A program made the translations under genes and the position numbers. The notes beneath the pieces are model-generated. The model searched no databases. It was given only the letters and a program-made list of their open reading frames with translations, and was not told where the DNA came from. From IMG/VR virus record IMGVR_UViG_3300031539_008075, positions 1-45,081 of that record: a stretch of 45,081 nt of DNA, one strand, 5' to 3'. This stretch comes from a virus. Positions 5,300 to 37,435 of the stretch are shown here, piece by piece (positions within the stretch are counted from its first letter, which is position 1; every line of letters starts with the position of its first letter).

Positions 5300-7807
5300 T
5301 CAACCGACGTTGTGTTTGTACATGCCCCTCCAATCCATGGGCCCGGTCGCAAAGAAGAACCGGACTTTGATGGGCATGACGTCGTTTGAGAACATCAGGC
5401 CGGCCGTGGGTGAGGCTACGCTGAAGATCTCGGGCGTGCTGCCGTACCTGAATCCCAAGCCGATGGTGGGCCAGAGTTGGGGATTGCAGACAGCGGCCCA
5501 GTTGTTCGTGTCGGTCCAGAGATCCACGACGATAACGCGTTCTCTCGCGCGTCGCAGCCGTTCCTCCCTGCCTTCGCCCTGGGCCTCCGGGTTGATGTCG
5601 TTGTCGGCCGTGCCGGGCTCGCCGGCGCTGGCCAGGTACTGCAGGGCGGCCATCTCCAGGTCGGACGGGACCAGGCAATAGACGGGCGCGGTCAGTGCGC
5701 CCAACCGCTCGCCAGAGTTCGTCTCCGTCTGCTGACGCATCGCCGTGCGGGTGGCGACCCAGGCAGCCCACGACAACGCGGTCGACCCGAGGTTGCCGTT
5801 GGACGCGTGGAATAAAGCCCTGGTGTTTGAGTTGTCGTAGTAGATGTTCGGCCCTACTCCAGAGTTGGCGGTAAAGATCTCGGAGATGGATTTGGACAGC
5901 GTGAGCCAGGCGGCCTGGGCCAGGGCACCGGGCATGGCGCGGAGGGTTCGCGTGTCGTCCTTGTCGATCGACTCGAGGGTGACCCCGAGGTATCCGCCTT
6001 TCTTGACAAACGTGCTCTGTTGCTCGATGTCGTCGATGGTGAGTTCGGTGTACGCAGCGCCCTCGGCGACGGTCGGCAGCTCGCCGATGCCGCCCAGGGT
6101 GATCCACTTGATGGTTTGCAGGCTCTGGAAGTTCTCGGGCCGGACGATCGGCTCCCACCAGAGCGGGTAGTTGGCGTACATCTGGACCACCCGTTTGTTG
6201 AGTGCGTCGGCGGTGAGCTTGGCCATGGTGGATGAGGTGACATTTGCCAGGTAGACGCGGTCACCGTGGAAGAGGCCGGTCATCTCCCAGTCGCCACTGA
6301 GCAATTCGTAGAACTCACGCACTCCGCGCAGTGGCGGGACTCTGCCGTCGGCCGGCAAAACGCCGTCGAGGAGCGCGTCCAGTGCGATCTTGACCTGGTC
6401 CAGGCTGTCGATGGCGCCGCGCAGTACCTGCGGTTGCCCTACGCCCTCGATGGTCGTCTCCTCCTCCCTGGCTGCCAGCGTAGCGGTCAGCAGCTCGAGC
6501 TGGCCCTCGATGGCCTCCAGTCGCTCTTCTTCGGGATCTGGCACGGGATCGGGTTCGGGCGTGAGGGCGTCCAGTCGGGAGAGGATCTGGTCGAGTCGGT
6601 CGGGCGCGGGCTGGGGGGGCTCGACCTGGGATCCGGAGGCGCTCATTCCGGGGGCGGGCGTGAGCGCGGTGACCTGTGAGGTCAGCGCCTCGATCTGGCT
6701 GGCCAGTGAGTCGAGCCGGGGATCGTGGGTCAGCGTAGCGGTCAGTGATGCGGTGGCGTCTTGGGGTTCGGGTTGTAGCGTCGGTGGTGCGGCGGTGCTG
6801 CCGGCATTGGGCGTGTTGGGTGGGGTCATACTGGTGTGGGGCATTGTATTACCTCCTACGGATTGGGGGACGAACCACACGCGGTGATCGTCCCGGATGG
6901 CCTCGAGCGCAGCACGGACGTATCCGCGTGCGCCGGGCGAGTAAACGAAGTCTACGGATTCGACGTGTGAGATTTCGGTGGTGGCGGTGAGTCCTGTATT
7001 CTCGTTCAGGTTGGTGCGTTGGAAGAAGACGGCGGAGAGTCCGGTCTGTGGTACCGGGCGGCCGGCCTCGCGGTCGGCGAGCATCTGGTCCATCAGAGCG
7101 CCGACGAAGGCGCCCGGGCTGCCGGGTTCCTGATCGTATAGCCGGATGCCGCCGAGCAGGGCCTGTTCGTCGTCGCTCCACCTGGGGTCGAATGTGACGC
7201 CCACGAGGTTCTTGACCTGGGGGGCCTGGTGCCATCCGAAACCGAACATTTCGGGATGGTCGAGGAAGGATGACAGGGCGTTGAAGAGAGGGGCGGCGGC
7301 TTTGACGGGCTCGGGTGGGATGATCCAGTCTGATTCAGTGCCGTCGGCTTTCATGACCCGCCCGGGTGTGAGGAAGACGCAGTCGTATTCACGTCCTGCG
7401 GATCGGGTGGCCGCGTCGACCGGTGCCAGGATCACCCGCCCAGCCTGGACGTGCGCCAGGAGGGATTCTGGGCCCGGGTCTGTCGGGATCGCGGCGTTCT
7501 CCTCCTTGTCGAGCCCCAGGGCGTGCCTGTGGGCGCTCAGGTGGGACTTGATCGCGTCGGAGGCATCCTCTCCGCTTCGTGCGCCCTGGGCGGCTGACCA
7601 CGCGGCGTTGAGTCCCCCCTTGTGGAGGAACATCTCGCCCGTGGTATACCGGCCGTCGTCGTCTGGATCCCCGCCGTTTCTCACCCAGTGGTGGGGGTAT
7701 CGCCGGCCCTCACGGTCGGCAAAGGCGCTGTCGGGCAGGTTGGTCTTGTTGACCGAACTCCAGGTAGGTTCGGAATCTGCGGTTTCGCTATTGTGTGTCA
7801 GTGCCAT
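5300..7807 (-). CDS. Fused prohead protease - scaffold - major capsid protein
   Basis: An 835-aa fusion. Residues 1-100 resemble the small domain found before phage proteases (LPDSAFADREGRRYP ... HRHAL). Residues 100-320 look like a prohead protease region with ISHVESVDFVYSPGARG near its end. Residues 330-460 are Pro/Gln/Glu-rich with Leu heptads, a scaffold-like coiled coil. Residues 480-835 read as an HK97-type capsid protein (WWEPIVRPENFQSLQ, YTELTIDDIEQQ, EIFTANSGVG, C-terminal VRFFFATGPMDW). The usual three genes are therefore one frame, and cleavage between residues about 455-490 would release mature capsid protein. The catalytic residues of the protease were not pinned down. Confidence 0.8.
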   Translation of the reverse strand: MALTHNSETADSEPTWSSVNKTNLPDSAFADREGRRYPHHWVRNGGDPDDDGRYTTGEMFLHKGGLNAAWSAAQGARSGEDASDAIKSHLSAHRHALGLDKEENAAIPTDPGPESLLAHVQAGRVILAPVDAATRSAGREYDCVFLTPGRVMKADGTESDWIIPPEPVKAAAPLFNALSSFLDHPEMFGFGWHQAPQVKNLVGVTFDPRWSDDEQALLGGIRLYDQEPGSPGAFVGALMDQMLADREAGRPVPQTGLSAVFFQRTNLNENTGLTATTEISHVESVDFVYSPGARGYVRAALEAIRDDHRVWFVPQSVGGNTMPHTSMTPPNTPNAGSTAAPPTLQPEPQDATASLTATLTHDPRLDSLASQIEALTSQVTALTPAPGMSASGSQVEPPQPAPDRLDQILSRLDALTPEPDPVPDPEEERLEAIEGQLELLTATLAAREEETTIEGVGQPQVLRGAIDSLDQVKIALDALLDGVLPADGRVPPLRGVREFYELLSGDWEMTGLFHGDRVYLANVTSSTMAKLTADALNKRVVQMYANYPLWWEPIVRPENFQSLQTIKWITLGGIGELPTVAEGAAYTELTIDDIEQQSTFVKKGGYLGVTLESIDKDDTRTLRAMPGALAQAAWLTLSKSISEIFTANSGVGPNIYYDNSNTRALFHASNGNLGSTALSWAAWVATRTAMRQQTETNSGERLGALTAPVYCLVPSDLEMAALQYLASAGEPGTADNDINPEAQGEGREERLRRARERVIVVDLWTDTNNWAAVCNPQLWPTIGLGFRYGSTPEIFSVASPTAGLMFSNDVMPIKVRFFFATGPMDWRGMYKHNVG

Positions 7808-9544: not shown

Positions 9545-11071
9545 TCACCATTCGCCCTGGTCGATCTCGTCGAGGGCGTCGTCCGTCTCCACTACGGCAC
9601 TCTCTCCCGTGCCGGGCCACTGTTGCTTGTCGAGCGCTCCCGTGAGCGCCGCACTGATCAACAAATCGTCGTGTCCTCTGGCAATGAGTCCGTCATACGC
9701 TGGCGTCTCCCATACCCCCCACTTCATCGACTGGCCCGGGCCCCTCCGGATCTCCTGCTGGCAACTCTCGACCTCGTACCAGAACTGCCGGGTGTCTGGC
9801 TGCTGATCGTCGACGTAATCCTGGTATCTGCCCGTCTCCACGATTGCGAGAAAGTCCCACCCGAGGTCGCTCTTCACCTTCGGACTGAACAGGACCGCGA
9901 TCAACCGGTCCGCGAGCGCCTTCGCCAGAAAGCTACTCAAGCCTGCGCCGACACCCGTGGAGTCGACCACCACAAACATCGCGTGCCAGTGGTTGGCCAG
10001 CGCCAGGATCTGACCGTACAGCGAAGCGTGTTTGACCCCGAGCCAGAGCTTTCGGTCGACCGCGCGGTATGTGGGCAACTGACCATACGGTGCGTCGACG
10101 TCGACCACGGTCAAGGCGGTGGCATCGCGCTTCGTGTTGCCGAGGAGCATCCGGGCCTGGGCGTCGCCCTCCTGCTCATCCTCGCCGGCGACGTCCACCA
10201 GGATCGCGTACCGGCGGCCTGGGACTGGCTCGTGTCTGCGCTCGTGATCGCCGCGCATCAGCGCCCGGCGCAGGGGCGGGAACAACCCGCCCTGGGCGTC
10301 GATCTCCTCCAGGAAGTACTGAGTGCGGATGAGCGGGTGGTTCCGGCCTTGTCTGGCGACCTCGTCCGCGACGTAGGCGGCGTACGCGGGTAACTCTGCG
10401 CCTACCCGGTCTGCGTCGTACTTGAACACGCGGCGGATGCCGTCCTTGGCCTCGAGCCTGGTGAGGTGCTGAATGGTGGTGGCCAGCAGGGTGTCGGACG
10501 TCCAGGCGGTTCCCCAGAGGACAGTCGTCACGTTGGTGCTGGCTCCCATCGGCCTGAAATCCTTGTCCCACTTGTCGGGCCTGACGTCCTGGGCCTCGTC
10601 GCATTCGAGGAGCAGGTCGGCGGTGGCTCCGACCACGTTGGAGTGGGGATCGGCCGAGAAGAACATACACCGGGCCTTGCCCAACTGGACGATGTATCCC
10701 TCGCGCCGTTTGGCCTTGCCTGCGCTCCAGGAATAATCGAGCCGGTCCATCAGTCGCATGATGCTGTTCAGGGTCTGCGGTTTGTATGTGGGGCTGGCTT
10801 TGACGATCTGGCCACCTGCGCGTTTGTGAAGGTACAGTAAGTAGGCCTCTATGTGCGATGAGAGCTCATTCTTTCCTGCTTGTCTGCTCATCATCACGGC
10901 GAAGGTGAGGCCGCGGTGGTTCAGGATGGAATCTGTTATAGCCTGGGCGGGCTCGACCTGGTAGCCGCGGAGCGGTCTGTGGATGACGAACTTGCTGAAT
11001 TGCTCCGCGTGGTTGAGGAAATCGATCGCGTGGTCACGGGTGAGTCCGTCGGCGAGCTCCTCAAGTCCCAG
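9545..11071 (-). CDS. terL: Terminase large subunit (probable CTG start)
   Basis: This is the packaging motor. The Walker A-like motif SRQAGKNE is followed by an adenine-binding region and the Walker B block LLLECDEAQD; the C-terminal nuclease domain has ILVDVAGE, VVVDSTG and ARGHDDLLISAAL. The first ATG/GTG in frame lies directly before Walker A, which would remove the expected N-terminal 55-60 residues. The frame is open upstream to CTG at 11071-11069, with GGAGGAG a few bases before it and overlapping the TerS end. That gives 508 aa, normal for the family. The added segment (HRPLRGYQVEPAQAI) looks like a terminase N terminus. Start choice is inference. Confidence 0.85.
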   Translation of the reverse strand: MGLEELADGLTRDHAIDFLNHAEQFSKFVIHRPLRGYQVEPAQAITDSILNHRGLTFAVMMSRQAGKNELSSHIEAYLLYLHKRAGGQIVKASPTYKPQTLNSIMRLMDRLDYSWSAGKAKRREGYIVQLGKARCMFFSADPHSNVVGATADLLLECDEAQDVRPDKWDKDFRPMGASTNVTTVLWGTAWTSDTLLATTIQHLTRLEAKDGIRRVFKYDADRVGAELPAYAAYVADEVARQGRNHPLIRTQYFLEEIDAQGGLFPPLRRALMRGDHERRHEPVPGRRYAILVDVAGEDEQEGDAQARMLLGNTKRDATALTVVDVDAPYGQLPTYRAVDRKLWLGVKHASLYGQILALANHWHAMFVVVDSTGVGAGLSSFLAKALADRLIAVLFSPKVKSDLGWDFLAIVETGRYQDYVDDQQPDTRQFWYEVESCQQEIRRGPGQSMKWGVWETPAYDGLIARGHDDLLISAALTGALDKQQWPGTGESAVVETDDALDEIDQGEW

Positions 11072-12694: not shown

Positions 12695-12920
12695 CTAGGT
12701 TCCACCTTGTGATCGGCGACACTTCAAACCGATCACACGTGCACCGGCACGCGTCGAGTCCGTCTGGTCCAAACTCTCGGAGGATGTAACATTCCCCCTC
12801 CCGGTCACAGAACCAGCCGGCGGGATGGGGGTAAGGGCCCTTGACGGCGTACGACCTGCAAAACTGGCACACGCGCGGTATGACGAGTCGTGCGTTCTTT
12901 GGCTTTGCTTTTCGTCTCAT
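12687..12920 (-). CDS. Cys-rich small protein (77 aa)
   Basis: Contains CQFCRSY near residue 18, a single Cys at FCDREGEC, and CRCTCDRF near residue 60, so one or two zinc sites are likely. The start overlaps the methyltransferase stop (ATGA, 12917-12920). Function unknown; a zinc-ribbon DNA- or RNA-binding protein is possible. Confidence 0.6.
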   Translation of the reverse strand: MRRKAKPKNARLVIPRVCQFCRSYAVKGPYPHPAGWFCDREGECYILREFGPDGLDACRCTCDRFEVSPITRWNLDE

Positions 12921-13828
12921 GGTGACCTCCAGTACAAGAGCGGCAGCTCTCGTCTATCACGTGCTCGTTGAGTGTTGCGCCTCTCTTTCTCCAGCGCCTC
13001 CTGGGCGTGTGGCGAAATCCAGATCGCCTCGGTCCTTTCGGCACTGGTGATCGCTCCCCCGCCGTTCGTCCTGGCCTTGAACTCTTTCCGCACCCATCCG
13101 TAGGCCTCGTACAGGTCGGCGTACAGGTCCGATGGATACCCGGAGATGATCACCATTCCCTGCAGCGACCTGGCCAGCTCGGCTAATTCCACGTGGTCCT
13201 CGTCGGACATCTCCACGGCGTAGATGTGCTTCCACTTCGATCGGGTGGAGTGGAGGTAGGGGGGATCCAGATAGAAGAGCGTGGTGGGTGCGTCGCATTG
13301 GCGGATGACGTCCAGCGCCGGCCGGCACTCGATCTGCACGCCCCGGAGCCGGTCCACGATCGTCCAGAGGTGGTCTGTGTCCCGGAAGTTCATCGACGAC
13401 GGTTTCCACAGCGTCCCGGCCTTGACCTGGTACCTCCATCCCTGCCGCCGCCTTGCGCGCCCGCCCCCGACGAACCCCTGCCAGCAGGAGACGTAGAACC
13501 TGCGGGCTTCCTCGACCGGATCGTCCGATGGCTCCTGTGCTAACTCATACTCGGCGCGGGCCCAGGGCGTGAGCGTGATCGCCCTGATCAACTCGTCCGG
13601 GTGCTCCCTGAGCACGCGGAACAGATTGACGACGGCACCGTTGAGGTCGTTGTACACCTCGAGCGGCCTTCGCGGCTTGTACAGGAGCACGCTCGCGGCG
13701 CCGCCATAGGGCTCGCAGTAGCACTCGTGGGCCGCGGGCAGGTGGGCCAGGATGAAACGCACGATCTTGGCCTTGCCGCCGTAGTATCTGACGAGCGGGT
13801 GTGCGGGGGCGGTGGGGGCGACTTGCAT
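12917..13828 (-). CDS. D12-class DNA adenine methyltransferase (Dam-like)
   Basis: A 303-aa enzyme with the SAM-binding motif near the N terminus (PLVRYYGGKAKIVRFI), the FxGxG-equivalent EPYGGAASVL, and the catalytic DPPY in LFYLDPPYLHST (about residue 185). This is the D12/Dam class making N6-methyladenine. The start at 13828 was chosen because its ATG shares a base with the TAA of the SH3-like gene (TAATG); a longer in-frame start exists at 13864. It probably protects phage DNA from restriction or marks it for replication control. Confidence 0.9.
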   Translation of the reverse strand: MQVAPTAPAHPLVRYYGGKAKIVRFILAHLPAAHECYCEPYGGAASVLLYKPRRPLEVYNDLNGAVVNLFRVLREHPDELIRAITLTPWARAEYELAQEPSDDPVEEARRFYVSCWQGFVGGGRARRRQGWRYQVKAGTLWKPSSMNFRDTDHLWTIVDRLRGVQIECRPALDVIRQCDAPTTLFYLDPPYLHSTRSKWKHIYAVEMSDEDHVELAELARSLQGMVIISGYPSDLYADLYEAYGWVRKEFKARTNGGGAITSAERTEAIWISPHAQEALEKERRNTQRARDRRELPLLYWRSP

Positions 13829-14190
13829 TACTCGGTCTCCGGTTTGAGCTCCTGGGGCAGCCACCAGGAGGGGTAGGTTGCTCCGTCCAGCTTTATGCGG
13901 TAGGACTCGGTCTTATCGGCGTTGACCTGAACGACAGCGCCGGCCTCGCCGTGGGATGTGGAGTGCGAGTTGGCAATTTTCACCCGGTCCCCGACCTGAA
14001 AGGCCGGCTGGATCAGCTCCACGTCTGTGGAGTGCATCCAGGCCGGCAGGTCGCCGTCGGCCTGGACCGAGATCCACGGCGACGCCCGGTCGTCCGCCTG
14101 TATGACGGTGCCGGTTCGACCTTGCACCGGGGGTGGTGCCGTGTCCAGGATCTGGACCCGGTCCAGGGGTTGGAGTCTACGGTTGGTCAT
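13828..14190 (-). CDS. Two-domain SH3-like protein
   Basis: A 120-aa protein with two similar halves, each opening with a turn typical of KOW/SH3-like barrels: PLDRVQILDTAPPPVQGRTGTV and VGDRVKIANSHSTSHGEAGAVV. Such domains bind nucleic acid or peptides. It overlaps the 327-aa HTH gene by 14 nt and shares the stop/start junction with the methyltransferase. The exact role is unknown. Confidence 0.6.
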   Translation of the reverse strand: MTNRRLQPLDRVQILDTAPPPVQGRTGTVIQADDRASPWISVQADGDLPAWMHSTDVELIQPAFQVGDRVKIANSHSTSHGEAGAVVQVNADKTESYRIKLDGATYPSWWLPQELKPETE

Positions 14191-25357: not shown

Positions 25358-26077
25358 CTAGAAACTGAGTTCGTCCAGGGGCGTACACGTGTTGTGGATG
25401 TAGAGCTGGAGGTTGGGCAGTGCGTTGCGGATCTGATTGTCGAACCGGACAGCCCGATCCCAGTCCGTGGGCCAATTGTGGATCTCGGCCCAGTCGCTCC
25501 GAGGTCGCAAGGGACACATCACACACGAGGACTTGACGGGAACAGGCAAATGGTGAGTCTGGAGGTACTCGACACAATCGGCGCGGCTCATATCGAGCTC
25601 CAACAACGGCCACCGGGGCACGATGTACTTGACGTCGAACGGCCTGGCGCGTTGAGCCTCGTCGGTCGAGAATCCAATCCAGTTCTCGACGACACCCGGG
25701 ACCAGGCGGATGGATCGGCGCCGGCGCTCCTCGTTGATCCACTTGCGGGGCGCCCTGACCTTGAACCGGTACGTGCACTTTCTCCAGATCTGCCCCTTGT
25801 GACCCTGCGCGTCCATCGTGTAGAACGGCGGATGAGCGTTGGCATTGGGCGGGATGAGGCGACAGGACGGGGCGGGTGTGGTGACGTGGACCGGGATGTC
25901 GTGGGATTCGATCCACGGCGTGAACACAGCAGCCAGCTCACGGGTTGGCGTGCGTTCCCACCCGGTGGCCACATTGAGGGCGAGGTCGGGCTTGGGGATG
26001 TCTCCGAGGGCGGCCATCGCGGCGATGGTGAAGGACTGGACGCCCCAGGACAAGCTGAGGATGGTGAGTTGTGGCAT
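25358..26077 (-). CDS. PP-loop (PAPS reductase-like) protein
   Basis: A 239-aa protein opening MPQLTILSLSWGVQSFTIA, where SWGVQS is a PP-loop variant for ATP pyrophosphatase chemistry, and ending with a Cys pair in KSSCVMCPLRPRSDWAEI, as in the PAPS-reductase/DndC superfamily. Phages often carry such proteins; roles proposed include nucleotide or sulfur chemistry. It is the last gene before the A-free block and has a 12-bp hairpin ending 6 nt before its ATG. The substrate is not identifiable by eye. Confidence 0.7.
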   Translation of the reverse strand: MPQLTILSLSWGVQSFTIAAMAALGDIPKPDLALNVATGWERTPTRELAAVFTPWIESHDIPVHVTTPAPSCRLIPPNANAHPPFYTMDAQGHKGQIWRKCTYRFKVRAPRKWINEERRRRSIRLVPGVVENWIGFSTDEAQRARPFDVKYIVPRWPLLELDMSRADCVEYLQTHHLPVPVKSSCVMCPLRPRSDWAEIHNWPTDWDRAVRFDNQIRNALPNLQLYIHNTCTPLDELSF

Positions 26078-26141: not shown

Positions 26142-26516
26142 TCAAGCGGGGTGTCGGACGGGTTTGGGCTCGATCGCCTTCAGGTCGCTCTCACTGACGT
26201 ACCACTTCCCGCCGCACTTCTCGGCGTGGACGTGGTCGGTCTTGGCCCAGTTCTGGATCGTGCGGATCGGGTGCCCGGTCATGCGCGCGGCGTCGCGCGT
26301 GGTGATCATTCCGTCGGGCGGGAGGTGGGGCACCTTTGTCGTCAGCCGGTCACGCTGCCGGCATTCCTGGATCTGGTCGACCGGCACGTAGTATACCGGT
26401 GCCTCGATCGCCGGCAACAGCCCGGACCTGATCCACTGCCTGATCGTATCGGGGCTGTTGCGGGTGAGGGCGGCGGCTTCTCTGACAGTTCTGTATCCTG
26501 GGGGTATAGGTTGCAT
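26142..26516 (-). CDS. Tandem HTH protein (124 aa), excisionase-like
   Basis: Two similar MerR/excisionase-type helix-turn-helix units: VREAAALTRNSPDTIRQWI (residues 11-29) and ITTRDAARMTGHPIRTIQNW (about 70-89), the second followed by a wing (KCGGKWYVSESDLKAI). The ATG at 26516 shares a base with the stop of the radical-SAM gene (TGATG), so it is coupled to it. It is a probable DNA-binding regulator or recombination directionality factor. Confidence 0.7.
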   Translation of the reverse strand: MQPIPPGYRTVREAAALTRNSPDTIRQWIRSGLLPAIEAPVYYVPVDQIQECRQRDRLTTKVPHLPPDGMITTRDAARMTGHPIRTIQNWAKTDHVHAEKCGGKWYVSESDLKAIEPKPVRHPA

Positions 26517-27400
26517 CAGTCCCTCCTCAACCACGGCTTTTGGGCCGGGGCGCGTTTGTACTCCTCGAACGGGATTGCTCCCAGCCACCTGGTTCGGTAC
26601 CAGTAGCGGCTCATATTTCTGAGCTGCGTGTCACTCCACCCGGGCGCCACGTACTTGTTCTTTTCCAGCGCGTCCAGCGGCTGAAACCGCATGGGGTTCG
26701 GGTCGATGCCCCACTCGGACTTGAGCTTGTGGCACCGGTAAAGCGCATCCTCCGGCGTGTCGTCGAAGCCAAAGAGGACGTACACCCGGATTTGTTTTTT
26801 CGTGATCCCTGCCCGTCGCAAGGTCCATATTGCGTCGTGGACGTTCGTCTCATCCCGGACGTGGTCCCACGCGAGGCGCACCTTGTGCAGGTCCAGCTCG
26901 GCGATGCGGGTGGCGTGGTGCTTGGTCAGCAGCCGCGCATCCAGCCCCTGGTTAAAGTCCACGCCCTTGAGACCCTTCAGGCTATCGATTACTCTGTCGA
27001 AGTGCGTGCGGGAGCTGGCCAGCAGGTTGTTGTCGCACACCACCGGGTTGCGTCGCCAGACCGGCAACTCGCGGAACTCGCCCTCGATGCGCGGCACTGC
27101 ACAGAAGGCGCACCTTCTGATGCAGCCGCGCGTGGTGAACGTGGCGTGGGCGTTATGGTGTGGGAGGGCGTCGATGGGGATGCCGTTGACCTGGGCGACG
27201 TCGGCCAGCGCCTGGGGCTGGAGCTTGACCGCCGGTCCGCCGGCGAACACCTGCCGGCCCAGCGATCGATGCCAGGCGGCGCGGGCGTAGGCGGCGGCCA
27301 GGTCCCAGGAAAAGACGACCGACAAGTAAGCGCGGTTGCCCTCGATCCACTCGGCCGTGCCCGGGGTCCAGGGGTAGGGCTGGGCGGTGCTTGCTTTCAC
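26516..27400 (-). CDS. Radical-SAM protein
   Basis: A 294-aa protein with the [4Fe-4S]-cluster motif CX3CX2C in TTRGCIRRCAFCAVPRIEG (about residue 85), a downstream conserved block DFNQGLDARLLTKHHA and a C-terminal GFDDTPEDALYRC region. The start is GTG at 27400, overlapping the previous gene as GTGA; the longer in-frame reading is rejected. It is larger than QueE, so it is not the usual 7-deazaguanine radical-SAM enzyme. It may modify a nucleotide, an RNA or a small molecule. Confidence 0.75.
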   Translation of the reverse strand: MKASTAQPYPWTPGTAEWIEGNRAYLSVVFSWDLAAAYARAAWHRSLGRQVFAGGPAVKLQPQALADVAQVNGIPIDALPHHNAHATFTTRGCIRRCAFCAVPRIEGEFRELPVWRRNPVVCDNNLLASSRTHFDRVIDSLKGLKGVDFNQGLDARLLTKHHATRIAELDLHKVRLAWDHVRDETNVHDAIWTLRRAGITKKQIRVYVLFGFDDTPEDALYRCHKLKSEWGIDPNPMRFQPLDALEKNKYVAPGWSDTQLRNMSRYWYRTRWLGAIPFEEYKRAPAQKPWLRRD

Positions 27401-27639
27401 TCGCCTGCCTTCTTCCCGGGCTTGAGCGTGGCTGCCACGTTCTTGACGTCCTCCAGGCTGACGAGCAATATCTTGGGGCCTCGACGCTTCCACCTGATCT
27501 TGTTCTCTTCAGTGGCCCAGCGTTGGATGGTTCTGATCGGGATCCCCGTTCGGATGCTGGCCTCGCGGGTGGTGACCATCCCGTTGGGTGCTGCTGCCCT
27601 CTGGCGCTGTGCGGCTCGGCGTTCGGTGAGTTTGCTCAT
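27397..27639 (-). CDS. HTH protein, excisionase-like (80 aa)
   Basis: Opens MSKLTERRAAQRQRAAAPNG, then a helix-turn-helix (VTTREASIRTGIPIRTIQRW) and a basic tail. Its sequence pattern resembles the second unit of the 26142 protein, so both may share an ancestor. The ATG overlaps the zinc-ribbon gene stop (ATGA). Confidence 0.7.
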   Translation of the reverse strand: MSKLTERRAAQRQRAAAPNGMVTTREASIRTGIPIRTIQRWATEENKIRWKRRGPKILLVSLEDVKNVAATLKPGKKAGE

Positions 27640-31084: not shown

Positions 31085-31230
31085 TGTTTGATGTCCTTGA
31101 TCCAGCCTGTGAGAAGATAGGTGAGAAGGGCAGCGACGAAAATTACAGCGAGTGTCGGGCATAGCGTGCCGGCGACGATGATAGTGCAGACGGTGGCGCT
31201 GGTGAGAATGTCGCCCCAGAGGTCGTTCAT
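31039..31230 (-). CDS. Small two-span membrane protein (63 aa)
   Basis: Two hydrophobic segments (about residues 8-23 and 25-43: SATVCTIIVAGTLC, LAVIFVAALLTYLL) and a basic C terminus (KQWRNRRQQ). Its ATG overlaps the upstream stop as ATGA. Likely a host-membrane protein; holin-like size but in the early operon. Confidence 0.55.
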   Translation of the reverse strand: MNDLWGDILTSATVCTIIVAGTLCPTLAVIFVAALLTYLLTGWIKDIKQWRNRRQQCNRTSRQ

Positions 31231-32096
31231 GGTACCTCCGGGAGGTCGTGCACCAGGATCTCAACCCCCTGGCCGTTGACTTTGACGATCCCGGCCTGTT
31301 TGGCCCTCTTCAGGTGATCACTCACGGTCCGCCGGCTGATGCCCAAGTCCGCCGCAGCCTCGCCTTGGGTTGCCTTCGGATTTCCCGCGAACCACCGCAC
31401 GGTTCGCAGTGCGTTCCCTAGCTCTGCCACTGCCTGCACAGCCTCCGCCGCGCGTTGCCGTTCCTCCGCCTGGGCCTGCACAGCATCCGCCTCGACCCGC
31501 GCAAGCGCTGTGCGTGCCTCCGCCCTGGCCTTCGCAGTGGCTGCCTTTGCCTTCTCAGTCTCCGCCGCAGCCTGCACACGTGCCGCCACCCGGGCGGTCT
31601 CCTCGTGCTGGGCGATGCGGAACTTGTCGAGCTCGAGCTGGCGTAGGGCTTGGGCTTCAGCTTGGACTTGGGCATTGGTCTCCTCGTGTTTGGTGTGGCG
31701 GGCGTGGGCGAGTGCGCGCAGTCCGGCGATGGCGCCGGCGAGCACCGGGCAAATGGAACCGAATAAGAGCGATAGAAGCGGGTGGTCGGTGGGTGTGGTT
31801 GCGCGATAGTAGGCGTAGCCAAACCCGATCGGTGCCCCGCAGGACAGGATGAAGACGAGGGCAGCGTAGATGCGTTCAGTGCGTGAGTGGGCGTGGGTCA
31901 ATCTGTGCAAGCTGGCTGCAGCGGTCAGGTCCAGGCTGAGCGCGACCACGTACCCCAACGGGCTCCGGTCGGCCTGCTCACGGACGCTGAACGCTGCGCC
32001 CGTGTGGCCGGCGTCGGACAGGAACAACACCCACATTGCTGCTGTCTGGATGTCGGTTGTTTTCTTGATCTTGGTCCACAACTGTGCGGTTGTCAT
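31227..32096 (-). CDS. Membrane protein with coiled coil and C-terminal winged HTH
   Basis: Residues 15-135 hold about four hydrophobic segments (e.g. AMWVLFLSDAGHTGAAF, YAALVFILSCGAPIGFG). Residues 140-215 are a long Ala/Glu/Gln/Arg coiled coil. The C-terminal 60 residues contain GEAAADLGISRRTVSDHLKRA, a clear helix-turn-helix. A membrane-anchored DNA-binding protein is unusual for a phage; it might tether phage DNA to the membrane or sense an envelope signal. The N-terminal membrane part resembles DUF2637/spdB-type plasmid-transfer proteins. Start ATG follows AAAGGAGACCACC. Confidence 0.7.
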   Translation of the reverse strand: MTTAQLWTKIKKTTDIQTAAMWVLFLSDAGHTGAAFSVREQADRSPLGYVVALSLDLTAAASLHRLTHAHSRTERIYAALVFILSCGAPIGFGYAYYRATTPTDHPLLSLLFGSICPVLAGAIAGLRALAHARHTKHEETNAQVQAEAQALRQLELDKFRIAQHEETARVAARVQAAAETEKAKAATAKARAEARTALARVEADAVQAQAEERQRAAEAVQAVAELGNALRTVRWFAGNPKATQGEAAADLGISRRTVSDHLKRAKQAGIVKVNGQGVEILVHDLPEVP

Positions 32097-32115
32097 GGTG
32101 GTCTCCTTTTCGTGT
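32083..32115. repeat. 33-bp direct repeat, copy 1 (gene start region)
   Basis: Identical to 32353-32385. It covers the ribosome site AAAGGAGACCACC and the first codons (MTTA) of the membrane-HTH gene. The related leader CATGGTGGTCTCC also occurs at 33497 and 35517, so this start module has been reused in the operon. Confidence 0.9.
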
Positions 32116-32165
32116 CTAACGGGTTCTTGGCTCTGATGCGCTGTCTCTGACACACTCACGCTCAC

Positions 32166-32366
32166 TCACCTGCCCGCCCCGTCTTCTAGGCCCACGACCA
32201 CAGTGCCGGTGCGATTGTCCCCAGCATCACGCATAGGTGGGTGCGTGAAACTGTGTACACTCGCTCCTACATTGTGGTTCGTGTGCTGTAGTAGGCGGTG
32301 TGAGCGAGTGAGTGAGCGGTGTGAGCTTGGTCTTGGTGTGCGATGGTGTGAGTGTGCGGTTGTCAT
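32166..32366 (-). CDS. Doubtful small gene, possible duplicate remnant (66 aa)
   Basis: Starts MTTAHSHHRTPRPSSHRSL with the same 33-bp leader and first codons as the gene downstream; the rest is His/Ser/Thr-rich and low-complexity, overlying GTGTGAGC-type short repeats on the plus strand. It may be a decayed copy of the membrane-HTH gene start rather than a functional protein. Confidence 0.3.
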   Translation of the reverse strand: MTTAHSHHRTPRPSSHRSLTRSHRLLQHTNHNVGASVHSFTHPPMRDAGDNRTGTVVVGLEDGAGR

Positions 32367-32385
32367 GGTGGTCTCCTTTTCGTGT
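32353..32385. repeat. 33-bp direct repeat, copy 2
   Basis: Same 33 bases as 32083-32115, here at the start of the doubtful 66-aa frame, 270 bp away. Confidence 0.9.
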
Positions 32386-33018
32386 TTAGATGATCGGTAG
32401 CTTGGTCTGGGCATCGAGGGCGCGAAGGAGAGGCAGTGCCCAGGCGAGGCTCTTGTCTGTTGCGATTCCGAATGTGGTGCCGTCTATGCTGTCGGCACCG
32501 ATGTGGAAAGCGAAGCGGAAGCGTTTCTGGCTGTTGACTCGGCCGAGATGTACCCACTTTGCACGACGTTTGGCTTGGCGGGCGAGGTCGACGGCTGTGG
32601 GTGACAGCTTCCATTTGGTGGTGCCGCCAATGAATAGGGCTTCGAATTTTGACCATGGTACGGTGAGGTGCTCGAGTCCGTCCTGGGCGACGAGGGCGAC
32701 GGGATAGCCGAGGTTGTGGAGGGCGGGTTCCCAATGGCGGAATCGTTTCAGGGTGGCGCGTGCGTTTCCGACGACGTCGGGTGCAGTCACGAACAGGCAG
32801 CGGTGGTTGCGGCTTTGGTGGTGGCAGAGCATGGTTATGAAACGACGGGGGTGGAAGTTGTCTGGGTTGAAGCAATCGTTGTCGGCTGCCCACCAGGCGT
32901 TGGGTGTGAAGGATGCCTGGTAATGGACTCGGGGCGTGATGAGTCGGCCCACAAATTGAGGGAAGTTGTGGGCGGCGGCTCGTATGCTGGGCGTGTTGCT
33001 TGAGCTGAGGATCATCAT
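32386..33018 (-). CDS. TIM-barrel transglycosylase-like (DpdA/TGT-like) protein
   Basis: A 210-aa protein with WAADNDCF (about 43), CLFVTAPDVVGNA (about 74), PVALVAQDG (about 106), LFIGGTTKWKL (about 128) and WVHLGRVNSQKR (about 154), then GADSIDGT. The DN-CF, QDG and IGG motifs match the logic of tRNA-guanine/deazapurine transglycosylases (DSGGF, VQGG-type). Phage DpdA enzymes insert 7-deazaguanines into DNA. I infer a similar role here; the family match is by memory and motif, not search. The start ATG overlaps the stop of the QueT gene, so both are co-translated. Confidence 0.5.
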   Translation of the reverse strand: MMILSSSNTPSIRAAAHNFPQFVGRLITPRVHYQASFTPNAWWAADNDCFNPDNFHPRRFITMLCHHQSRNHRCLFVTAPDVVGNARATLKRFRHWEPALHNLGYPVALVAQDGLEHLTVPWSKFEALFIGGTTKWKLSPTAVDLARQAKRRAKWVHLGRVNSQKRFRFAFHIGADSIDGTTFGIATDKSLAWALPLLRALDAQTKLPII

Positions 33019-33497
33019 TTTAGCTCGGCCTCGATTGCGTGATATGCTGGAATGAGAGTGAAGGTGCCTGCGGTGATGATCAGCGCGGTAGAGATGAAGA
33101 CAGAAAGGGCGGTTGGGATCCAGGGCAGCCCTGCCCCCAGCCCCAATGGGAACGTGGCTACTCCCGAGGCAATGATGACCGACTGGGCCAGGATCGCGAG
33201 CCAGGGAATGGATCGGATGCGGATCTTGCGCAGTGCGTAGGCGGCTAGGGCTCCGGTGAGATCGAAGATGGGCATAATTGCCCAGTCCCAGAAGCCGAAT
33301 GGGCTGGCCTGATTCGCGAAAAAGTCCCCGAGTGCGAACCCGAGCGCAAACTCGGGCCGGCAGACTGCGAGGGCCTTGAGTGCGTTGGCGGCTCTGAACT
33401 GGAGGGCGTGGAATGAGATAGGGGCCAGGGCGATGACGAGAATGTAGTAGAGTGCTCCGATTAGTGCGGCGTATACGGTCCGTTTGGTGTGAGTCAT
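33015..33497 (-). CDS. queT: QueT-family queuosine-precursor transporter
   Basis: A 160-aa integral membrane protein with the QueT signature region LAPISFHALQFRAANALKAL (residues 24-43) and downstream GFALGDFFAN and AIMPIFDLTGALAAYALR, five to six membrane spans. QueT is the membrane component that imports queuosine precursors via ECF transport. Finding it as a phage gene, fused by overlap to a transglycosylase-like gene, suggests uptake of a 7-deazaguanine base for DNA or tRNA modification. Start at 33497 follows AAAGGAGACCACC; the longer frame is rejected. Confidence 0.8.
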   Translation of the reverse strand: MTHTKRTVYAALIGALYYILVIALAPISFHALQFRAANALKALAVCRPEFALGFALGDFFANQASPFGFWDWAIMPIFDLTGALAAYALRKIRIRSIPWLAILAQSVIIASGVATFPLGLGAGLPWIPTALSVFISTALIITAGTFTLIPAYHAIEAELK

Positions 33498-33574
33498 GGT
33501 GGTCTCCTTTTCCGTGTCTAAGTGCGGTGTCGTACTTCGTCTGTTGTGTGTCATTTTGGAAGAAACAAACCTAC

Positions 33575-35538: not shown

Positions 35539-36222
35539 TTAGATCACGTGTTGTAGTGATTGCATGAGTTGGTGTCCGATGAATCGGGTGTAGGCTGGTG
35601 GGACTGCCTGTGTGATCTCGTGCCAGTCCATCCAGTGTATGCCCATTACCTGGCGCGCTTCCTTTAGTGAGGCAGCTATACGACAGAGCCTGTGTCCTTT
35701 GTAGCTGACGCGCCGAGCGTCGGGCCTCGAGCCGTAGACGCCAATCGTGTAGCTGTTGGAGTAGTGTCTGCACGGGAGCGCGAACAAGAGGACGTTGCTT
35801 TCAAAGTGGCGATGGCGTGCGAGGTGCTCAAGGCCGAACGATGCTCCACATAGTATTATCCCGGTGCGCAGCGGGCTTCCCTGTACATTCTCGATTATCC
35901 AGACCTTACCTGTAGCGGCGAGTGCGCGTCTGGTGGCGGCAATGAGGTCAGGTGGGTTGGGATTGGTACGTATCTGGCCAAATCTGGCGCGGGTGATTGC
36001 GCGCATGCCTGTATACTTCTGGCAAGGTGGACTGGCGTGTATTACAGAGTAGGGCTCGGAATGGTTCTTTAGAAATTCGAGAGCGTCAGCCTGGTGAAAC
36101 TCGAACGGATAATGGGGTTGTGGTTTGTGATCTACGCCGGTGACATTGAAGCCGGCTTGTGCGTAGCCGGCTGAGGCTCCACCGGCTCCGCAGTATAGGT
36201 CGAGTAGGCGGGGTTTGGTCAT
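35539..36222 (-). CDS. C5-cytosine DNA methyltransferase
   Basis: A 227-aa Dcm-type enzyme: motif I LLDLYCGAGGASAGYAQAG, motif IV with catalytic Cys in ASPPCQKYT, motif VI IENVQGSPL and a C-terminal PPAYTRFIG. It is shorter than restriction-linked C5 enzymes and lacks a large target-recognition region, as in many stand-alone phage methyltransferases. It opens the early operon; no restriction partner is visible. Confidence 0.9.
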   Translation of the reverse strand: MTKPRLLDLYCGAGGASAGYAQAGFNVTGVDHKPQPHYPFEFHQADALEFLKNHSEPYSVIHASPPCQKYTGMRAITRARFGQIRTNPNPPDLIAATRRALAATGKVWIIENVQGSPLRTGIILCGASFGLEHLARHRHFESNVLLFALPCRHYSNSYTIGVYGSRPDARRVSYKGHRLCRIAASLKEARQVMGIHWMDWHEITQAVPPAYTRFIGHQLMQSLQHVI

Positions 36223-37352: not shown

Positions 37353-37381
37353 AACGTTAGCTACACTAGCTGACATTCATT

Positions 37382-37435
37382 TAGAACGCCAGCTTCCCAA
37401 GCTGGATGTCTCGGGTTCGAATCCCGACACCCGCT
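37382..37435 (+). other. Probable attP: 3' half of tRNA-Gly(CCC)
   Basis: Positions 37382-37435 reproduce the second half of a tRNA: anticodon stem-loop CCAGC-TTCCCAA-GCTGG with anticodon CCC, variable region, T-arm TCGGG-TTCGAAT-CCCGA, and acceptor strand CACCCGC. The 5' half is absent. Phages that integrate into tRNA genes carry exactly this piece so that the tRNA is rebuilt after insertion. It lies 30 bp after the integrase. An intact attP inside the contig fits a circular, not integrated, genome. Confidence 0.85.

Follow-up and report, generated by a model that had tools for sequence, protein, structure and literature searches.

The genome of an uncultured phage carries a gene pair that we read as a salvage-type module for base modification, in which a transporter of the QueT family would import a 7-deazaguanine base and a short DpdA protein would exchange this base into the phage DNA. 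We give this reading a probability of about 0.6. The pair is encoded in a stretch of 45,081 bp, hereafter called the window, which is a whole virus record of IMG/VR. The more useful finding came from the relatives of the second gene: the subfamily of short DpdA proteins to which it belongs is systematically coupled to transporters of 7-deazaguanines.

A transporter gene overlapping the gene of a short DpdA

Both genes are encoded in the minus strand. The upstream one, queT (33015-33497), starts with ATG and encodes a membrane protein of 160 aa from the QueT family, of the ECF S-component type. The downstream one, dpdA (32386-33018), encodes a DpdA/TGT-like TIM-barrel protein of 210 aa, which we call short DpdA. 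The original prediction described two overlapping open reading frames, and this is confirmed by the sequence, where the stop of queT and the start of dpdA share the four bases ATGA at 33015-33018. A Shine-Dalgarno motif (AGGAG) is found immediately 5' of the ATG of queT, and the arrangement of the two frames makes it likely that their translation is coupled through the ATGA. A pattern search placed the ribosome-binding leader of queT, CGGAAAAGGAGACCACCATGAC, at 33493-33514 in the minus strand (repeat family D1), and this pattern has three matches in the record for none expected in shuffles. Near-identical leaders, ACGAAAAGGAGACCACCATGAC, occur three times in the minus strand, at 33484-33519, 32353-32388, and 32083-32118, where they precede queT, a small ORF right behind dpdA, and an HTH gene (31227-32097), respectively. 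The second copy, at the 3' end of dpdA, is 97% identical to the one at 32083-32118. These elements are duplicated ribosome-binding leaders within one gene block. No preQ1 riboswitch was found ahead of queT.

The assignment of the product of 33015-33497 to the QueT family, as originally predicted, is solid. It matches PF06177 with an E-value of 2.9e-24 and a score of 86.4 bits (cut-off 33.7), covering positions 2-134 of the 141 of the profile, and phrog_27044 with an E-value of 1e-17, the same PHROG that includes the QueT of phage Dp-1 (gp06). It keeps Q33, R35, N62, and D71, as well as the AxxxA of helix 1 (A11, A15), which is the contact motif of S-components. In the QxRx[SA]E motif, Q33 and R35 are present and position 38 is an Asn, while all members of a small set of eight compared QueTs have a Glu there; position 30 is a His, for a Gly in the same eight proteins. 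The Asn38 could alter the cargo of the transporter. The phage record encodes neither an ABC ATPase nor the T component EcfT, and QueT, being an S-component, would thus need an ECF module of the host, which is composed of two ATPases and EcfT. Near relatives of this QueT were not found by peptide patterns in viral and genome contig collections, nor in phages at an E-value of 1e-5. Its structure was predicted from the single sequence and is poor (pLDDT 53). A sequence search of the PDB returned no convincing match for either QueT or short DpdA.

Family, fold, and invariant residues of short DpdA

Short DpdA (32386-33018) has no match in Pfam or NCBIfam, including the family of TGT. Hence, of the profile searches proposed in the original prediction for both proteins, the one for QueT succeeded with PF06177, but TGT/DpdA could not be called with these two collections. 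Other evidence does place the protein. It matches phrog_15826 with an E-value of 1.4e-54, and tblastn revealed actinophage proteins 44-53% identical to it, several of which are named "DpdA-like tRNA-guanine transglycosylase" in their records. A single-sequence query gave no near relatives, but an alignment query did recover relatives, and the alignment with 64 of them from viral contigs was used as input for AF2. The resulting model has a pLDDT of 94.7 and a pTM of 0.91. When it was searched against the PDB with Foldseek, the first match was the TGT 3s1g (E-value 2.1e-5), and many TGT entries were among the first 50. VIA-align superposed it on the TGT 2nqz, which has preQ1 bound, with a Z of about 14.4 and an rmsd of 3.0 for 200 residues; residues 1-209 of the model superpose on TGT residues 40-369. 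The fold alone is not decisive, because pyruvate kinases reach a Z of 15 (VIA) against the same model, tying with TGT. Among the best matches in a library of viral structures were phage "queuine tRNA-ribosyltransferases", i.e., DpdA.

The comparison of profiles with hhalign separated the two families. Against four phage DpdAs, short DpdA had a probability of 89.7 and an E-value of 1.9e-6 across 116 columns, which take in D46, D81, G131-G132, and H157, the residue where the alignment stops. Against four canonical TGTs the probability was 0.1, i.e., there was no profile similarity, and there was no signal against the DpdA of Dp-1 alone. All 65 short-DpdA sequences share D46, D81, Q112, G131, G132, H157, R160, N162, R166, D179, and G180. 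Among these invariant residues, the program aligned to DpdA only D46, D81, the GG pair, and H157. D46 is aligned to the Asp in the LIDSGAF motif of phage DpdA, whereas D179 is outside the region aligned by hhalign and is paired with the TGT-type Asp by order only. By order and motif, the invariant residues look like the base-exchange set of TGT and DpdA, which in E. coli Tgt includes what we take to be the catalytic aspartates, D89 and D264. Bacterial TGT shares the TIM-barrel fold and is the top PDB match; E. coli Tgt (375 aa) is about 165 residues longer than short DpdA and lacks the profile similarity. The product of 32386-33018 is predicted to be a short TIM barrel of the DpdA/TGT type. 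This agrees with the original prediction, which would have been abandoned if the structure model had put the protein outside the TGT fold; the model puts it inside.

Transporter genes next to short DpdA in other phages

To place the window pair among its relatives, we collected short-DpdA loci from IMG/VR (best 80 of 544 relatives kept) and from 84,980 genomes (54 loci), and inspected the neighbourhood of the gene in nine phage records. The 144 loci were reduced to 116 once near-duplicates were removed. A gene of a YhhQ/Vut_1 transporter is found in the same strand and at most 150 nt away from short DpdA in 37 of the 116 loci, and within about 320 nt in a further 5 (total 42/116). It is upstream of short DpdA in 30 of the 37 adjoining cases and downstream in 7, which suggests that the association arose repeatedly and was not inherited as a single arrangement. 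Among 33 of these neighbours that were tested, 32 matched TIGR00697, "queuosine precursor transporter", and all matched PF02592. When 50 whole virus records were scanned end to end, Vut_1 was found in 26, and in all 26 it adjoins short DpdA.

Genes for preQ0 synthesis (QueC, QueD, or QueE), called with HMMs that we built on the genes annotated in phage Sonali rather than with curated models, directly adjoin short DpdA in 13 of the 116 loci; in three more, preQ0 genes and a full DpdA are found at a greater distance. About half of the loci have neither a transporter nor a preQ0 gene as neighbour, and these may rely on a supply by the host. QueT was found beside short DpdA in none of the 50 virus records and in none of the remaining loci surveyed. 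Hence, this pair was seen in the window only.

Full-length and short DpdA are found together in three phages, Sonali, R29Z, and phiG7, which suggests that the short protein may have another role. A second DpdA is in the flanks of 5 loci, and most short-DpdA loci are without one. In some phages both forms occur along with preQ0 synthesis genes, as in Sonali (locus L002, 5896-6513 and 8883-9773), phiG7 (L009), and locus L007. The match to short DpdA is broken into two pieces in the Escherichia phages phiG7 and SHIN8, so the gene may be decaying there. A literature search on DpdL, DpdM, and DpdN gave nothing relevant.

Synthesis genes and other genes of the window

Across the 45,081 bp of the record, the HMMs that we made for FolE, QueD, QueE, QueC, DpdA, and YhhQ have no other match. 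The original remark, made by reading the sequence, that synthesis genes are not seen therefore stands for this record. A radical-SAM protein with a CxxxCxxC motif (26516-27493, minus strand) was considered as a hidden QueE and rejected: it matches phrog_9298 (E-value 2.2e-35) and not the QueE model. The minus strand also encodes a D12-class N6-adenine DNA methyltransferase (12917-13864; PF02086, E-value 5.2e-25) and a DNA methyltransferase of the C5-cytosine type with a PPCQ motif (35539-36222; phrog_363, E-value 4.5e-37). With DpdA included, the DNA of this phage may be modified in three ways. A PAPS-reductase-like protein is encoded at 25358-26077 (minus strand; phrog_424, E-value 4.2e-27). 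An annotated PAPS reductase is also one or a few genes away from short DpdA in ReqiPine5 and vB_EliS_R6L (L003, 6709-7626; L006, 5463-6506), and it is possible that this enzyme is a further partner of short DpdA. A borderline Rfam match to a tRNA at 37371-37429 in the plus strand (29.4 bits for a cut-off of 29) was not confirmed by ARAGORN.

The window phage belongs to an uncultured lineage. Its head maturation protease type protein (5300-7807) and its terminase-like protein (9545-10897), both in the minus strand, are distant from those of isolated phages, and the searches for a host with the head protease, the terminase, and FtsK gave distant and mixed matches only. Megablast with about half of the record gave no match.

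Comparison with known systems

The original prediction implied that a pair of QueT and DpdA would be new. This is weakened by the Streptococcus phage Dp-1, a direct precedent, where the QueT gene (gp06) is directly upstream of dpdA (gp07) and overlaps it by 11 bp. Gp06 matches PF06177 with an E-value of 3.2e-38 and, like the QueT of the window, phrog_27044; it was already named in the Seurat paper (PMC4342423). In the DNA of Dp-1, dPreQ1 amounts to about 1.7% of G (PMC6884629). The two systems differ in several respects. Dp-1 has FolE, QueC, QueD, and QueE beside the pair, whereas the window lacks synthesis genes; the DpdA of Dp-1 has 311 aa, belongs to another subfamily (phrog_887), and has no profile match to short DpdA; and Asn38 sets the QueT of the window apart. 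What is new here is the QueT pair with salvage only, the short DpdA subfamily, and its strong linkage to transporters.

The actinophages ReqiPine5 (gp04-gp03), StevieRay (gp53-gp54), and Aoka (gp38 and gp40) have a DpdA of the same short family. Like the window, they lack synthesis genes at the locus and carry the gene of a 7-deazaguanine transporter near short DpdA, either overlapping it or one gene away. Their transporter is Vut_1/TIGR00697 (YhhQ, QPTR), whereas that of the window is the unrelated QueT. Orion and the Salmonella phage 7-11, group 3 of Hutinet et al. (2019), also resemble the window in having DpdA without synthesis genes, and for such DpdA-only phages an uptake of exogenous 7-deazapurines was proposed (PMC6884629). 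The same study found homologues of YhhQ in some phages, with no correlation with any specific phage group (PMC6884629). Here, in contrast, transporters are strongly linked to one DpdA subfamily, and the transporter of the window is QueT. Modification was not detectable in the DNA of Orion despite its DpdA, which was attributed to phage and host both being without a preQ0 pathway (PMC6884629). A transporter is what would lift a limit of this type.

Proposed salvage for DNA modification and its alternatives

The recurrent pairing of short DpdA with Vut_1, the presence of QueT in its place in the window, and the lack of detectable FolE, QueD, QueE, and QueC are good evidence that the pair serves to salvage a 7-deazaguanine base. 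The idea of salvage instead of synthesis, made in the original prediction, is well supported because short DpdA is repeatedly paired with Vut_1 and because Dp-1 has the overlap of QueT and dpdA. In the mechanism that we propose, QueT would bind an extracellular 7-deazaguanine base (preQ0, preQ1, queuine, or a relative) and its import would be powered by the energising ECF module of the host. Short DpdA would be made from the same message, as suggested by the ATGA overlap and its recurrence, and would swap guanine for the imported base in the phage DNA, as suggested by its homology to DpdA and by the modification of DNA in Dp-1 and Rosebush (PMC6884629). This exchange would shield the phage DNA from restriction, in line with the same work (PMC6884629). 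A bolder version, to which we give somewhat less than even odds, is that hypermodification relies on salvage only: the S-component QueT would be plugged into the host ECF, the base would come from the environment, a minimal DpdA of 210 aa would insert it, and the resistance to restriction would be set by what neighbouring microbes release. The imported base would then possibly be non-standard, given the Asn at the conserved Glu position.

The pair might instead act on RNA, boosting queuosine-type modification of tRNA during infection with short DpdA as a TGT. Salvage of queuosine for tRNA is the normal role of QueT and YhhQ (PMC11130926), and among solved structures the fold of TGT is the nearest to that of short DpdA. 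Still, the nearest characterised sequences are phage DpdA and not TGT, the length of 210 aa is far below the 375 of E. coli Tgt, and mycobacteria, the hosts of some relatives, are without any gene of the Q pathway (PMC6884629), which together make this explanation unlikely. We regard as slightly less probable still that the barrel of short DpdA has an auxiliary role or a different activity, for example on a base that the DNA already contains, on nucleotides, or in partnership with a second DpdA, with the same importer as supplier. The co-occurrence of both forms of DpdA in three phages fits this explanation, as does the invariant H157-x-G-R-x-N-x3-R166, which is unmatched to DpdA since the profile alignment ends at H157. 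However, a second DpdA is missing from the flanks of most loci (5 have one), and the TGT-type base-exchange order of Asp, Gln, Gly-Gly, and Asp is invariant.

The remaining explanations question the use of the pair or its unity. The pair could be real and idle in most conditions, leaving the DNA unmodified when exogenous base or a host ECF module is lacking. The DpdA of Orion without detectable modification (PMC6884629) is an example, and the phage itself encodes neither an ABC ATPase nor EcfT. Yet, the invariance of the putative active site across diverse relatives and the repeated pairing of short DpdA with transporters argue for regular use, and we find this account improbable. That the genes are chance neighbours, with QueT importing an unrelated vitamin-like compound and the overlap arising by chance from the tight packing of phage genes, seems very improbable. 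The Asn38 and His30 of QueT, where 8 of 8 compared proteins have Glu and Gly, and the failure to find a second locus with QueT and short DpdA are in its favour, but linkage to transporters is habitual in the short-DpdA subfamily and Dp-1 shows an overlap of QueT and dpdA too.

Salvage of a base for exchange into the phage DNA thus remains our preferred reading. Concerning the point left open in 2019 on YhhQ and phage groups, transporter genes here mark one specific DpdA subfamily. The existence of cultured relatives with short DpdA that grow on M. smegmatis makes testing practical. If the reading is true, a large subfamily of short DpdA proteins, so far named by analogy only, would gain a testable function, and the protection of phage DNA could be based on a nutrient scavenged from the community, not on a synthesis operon.
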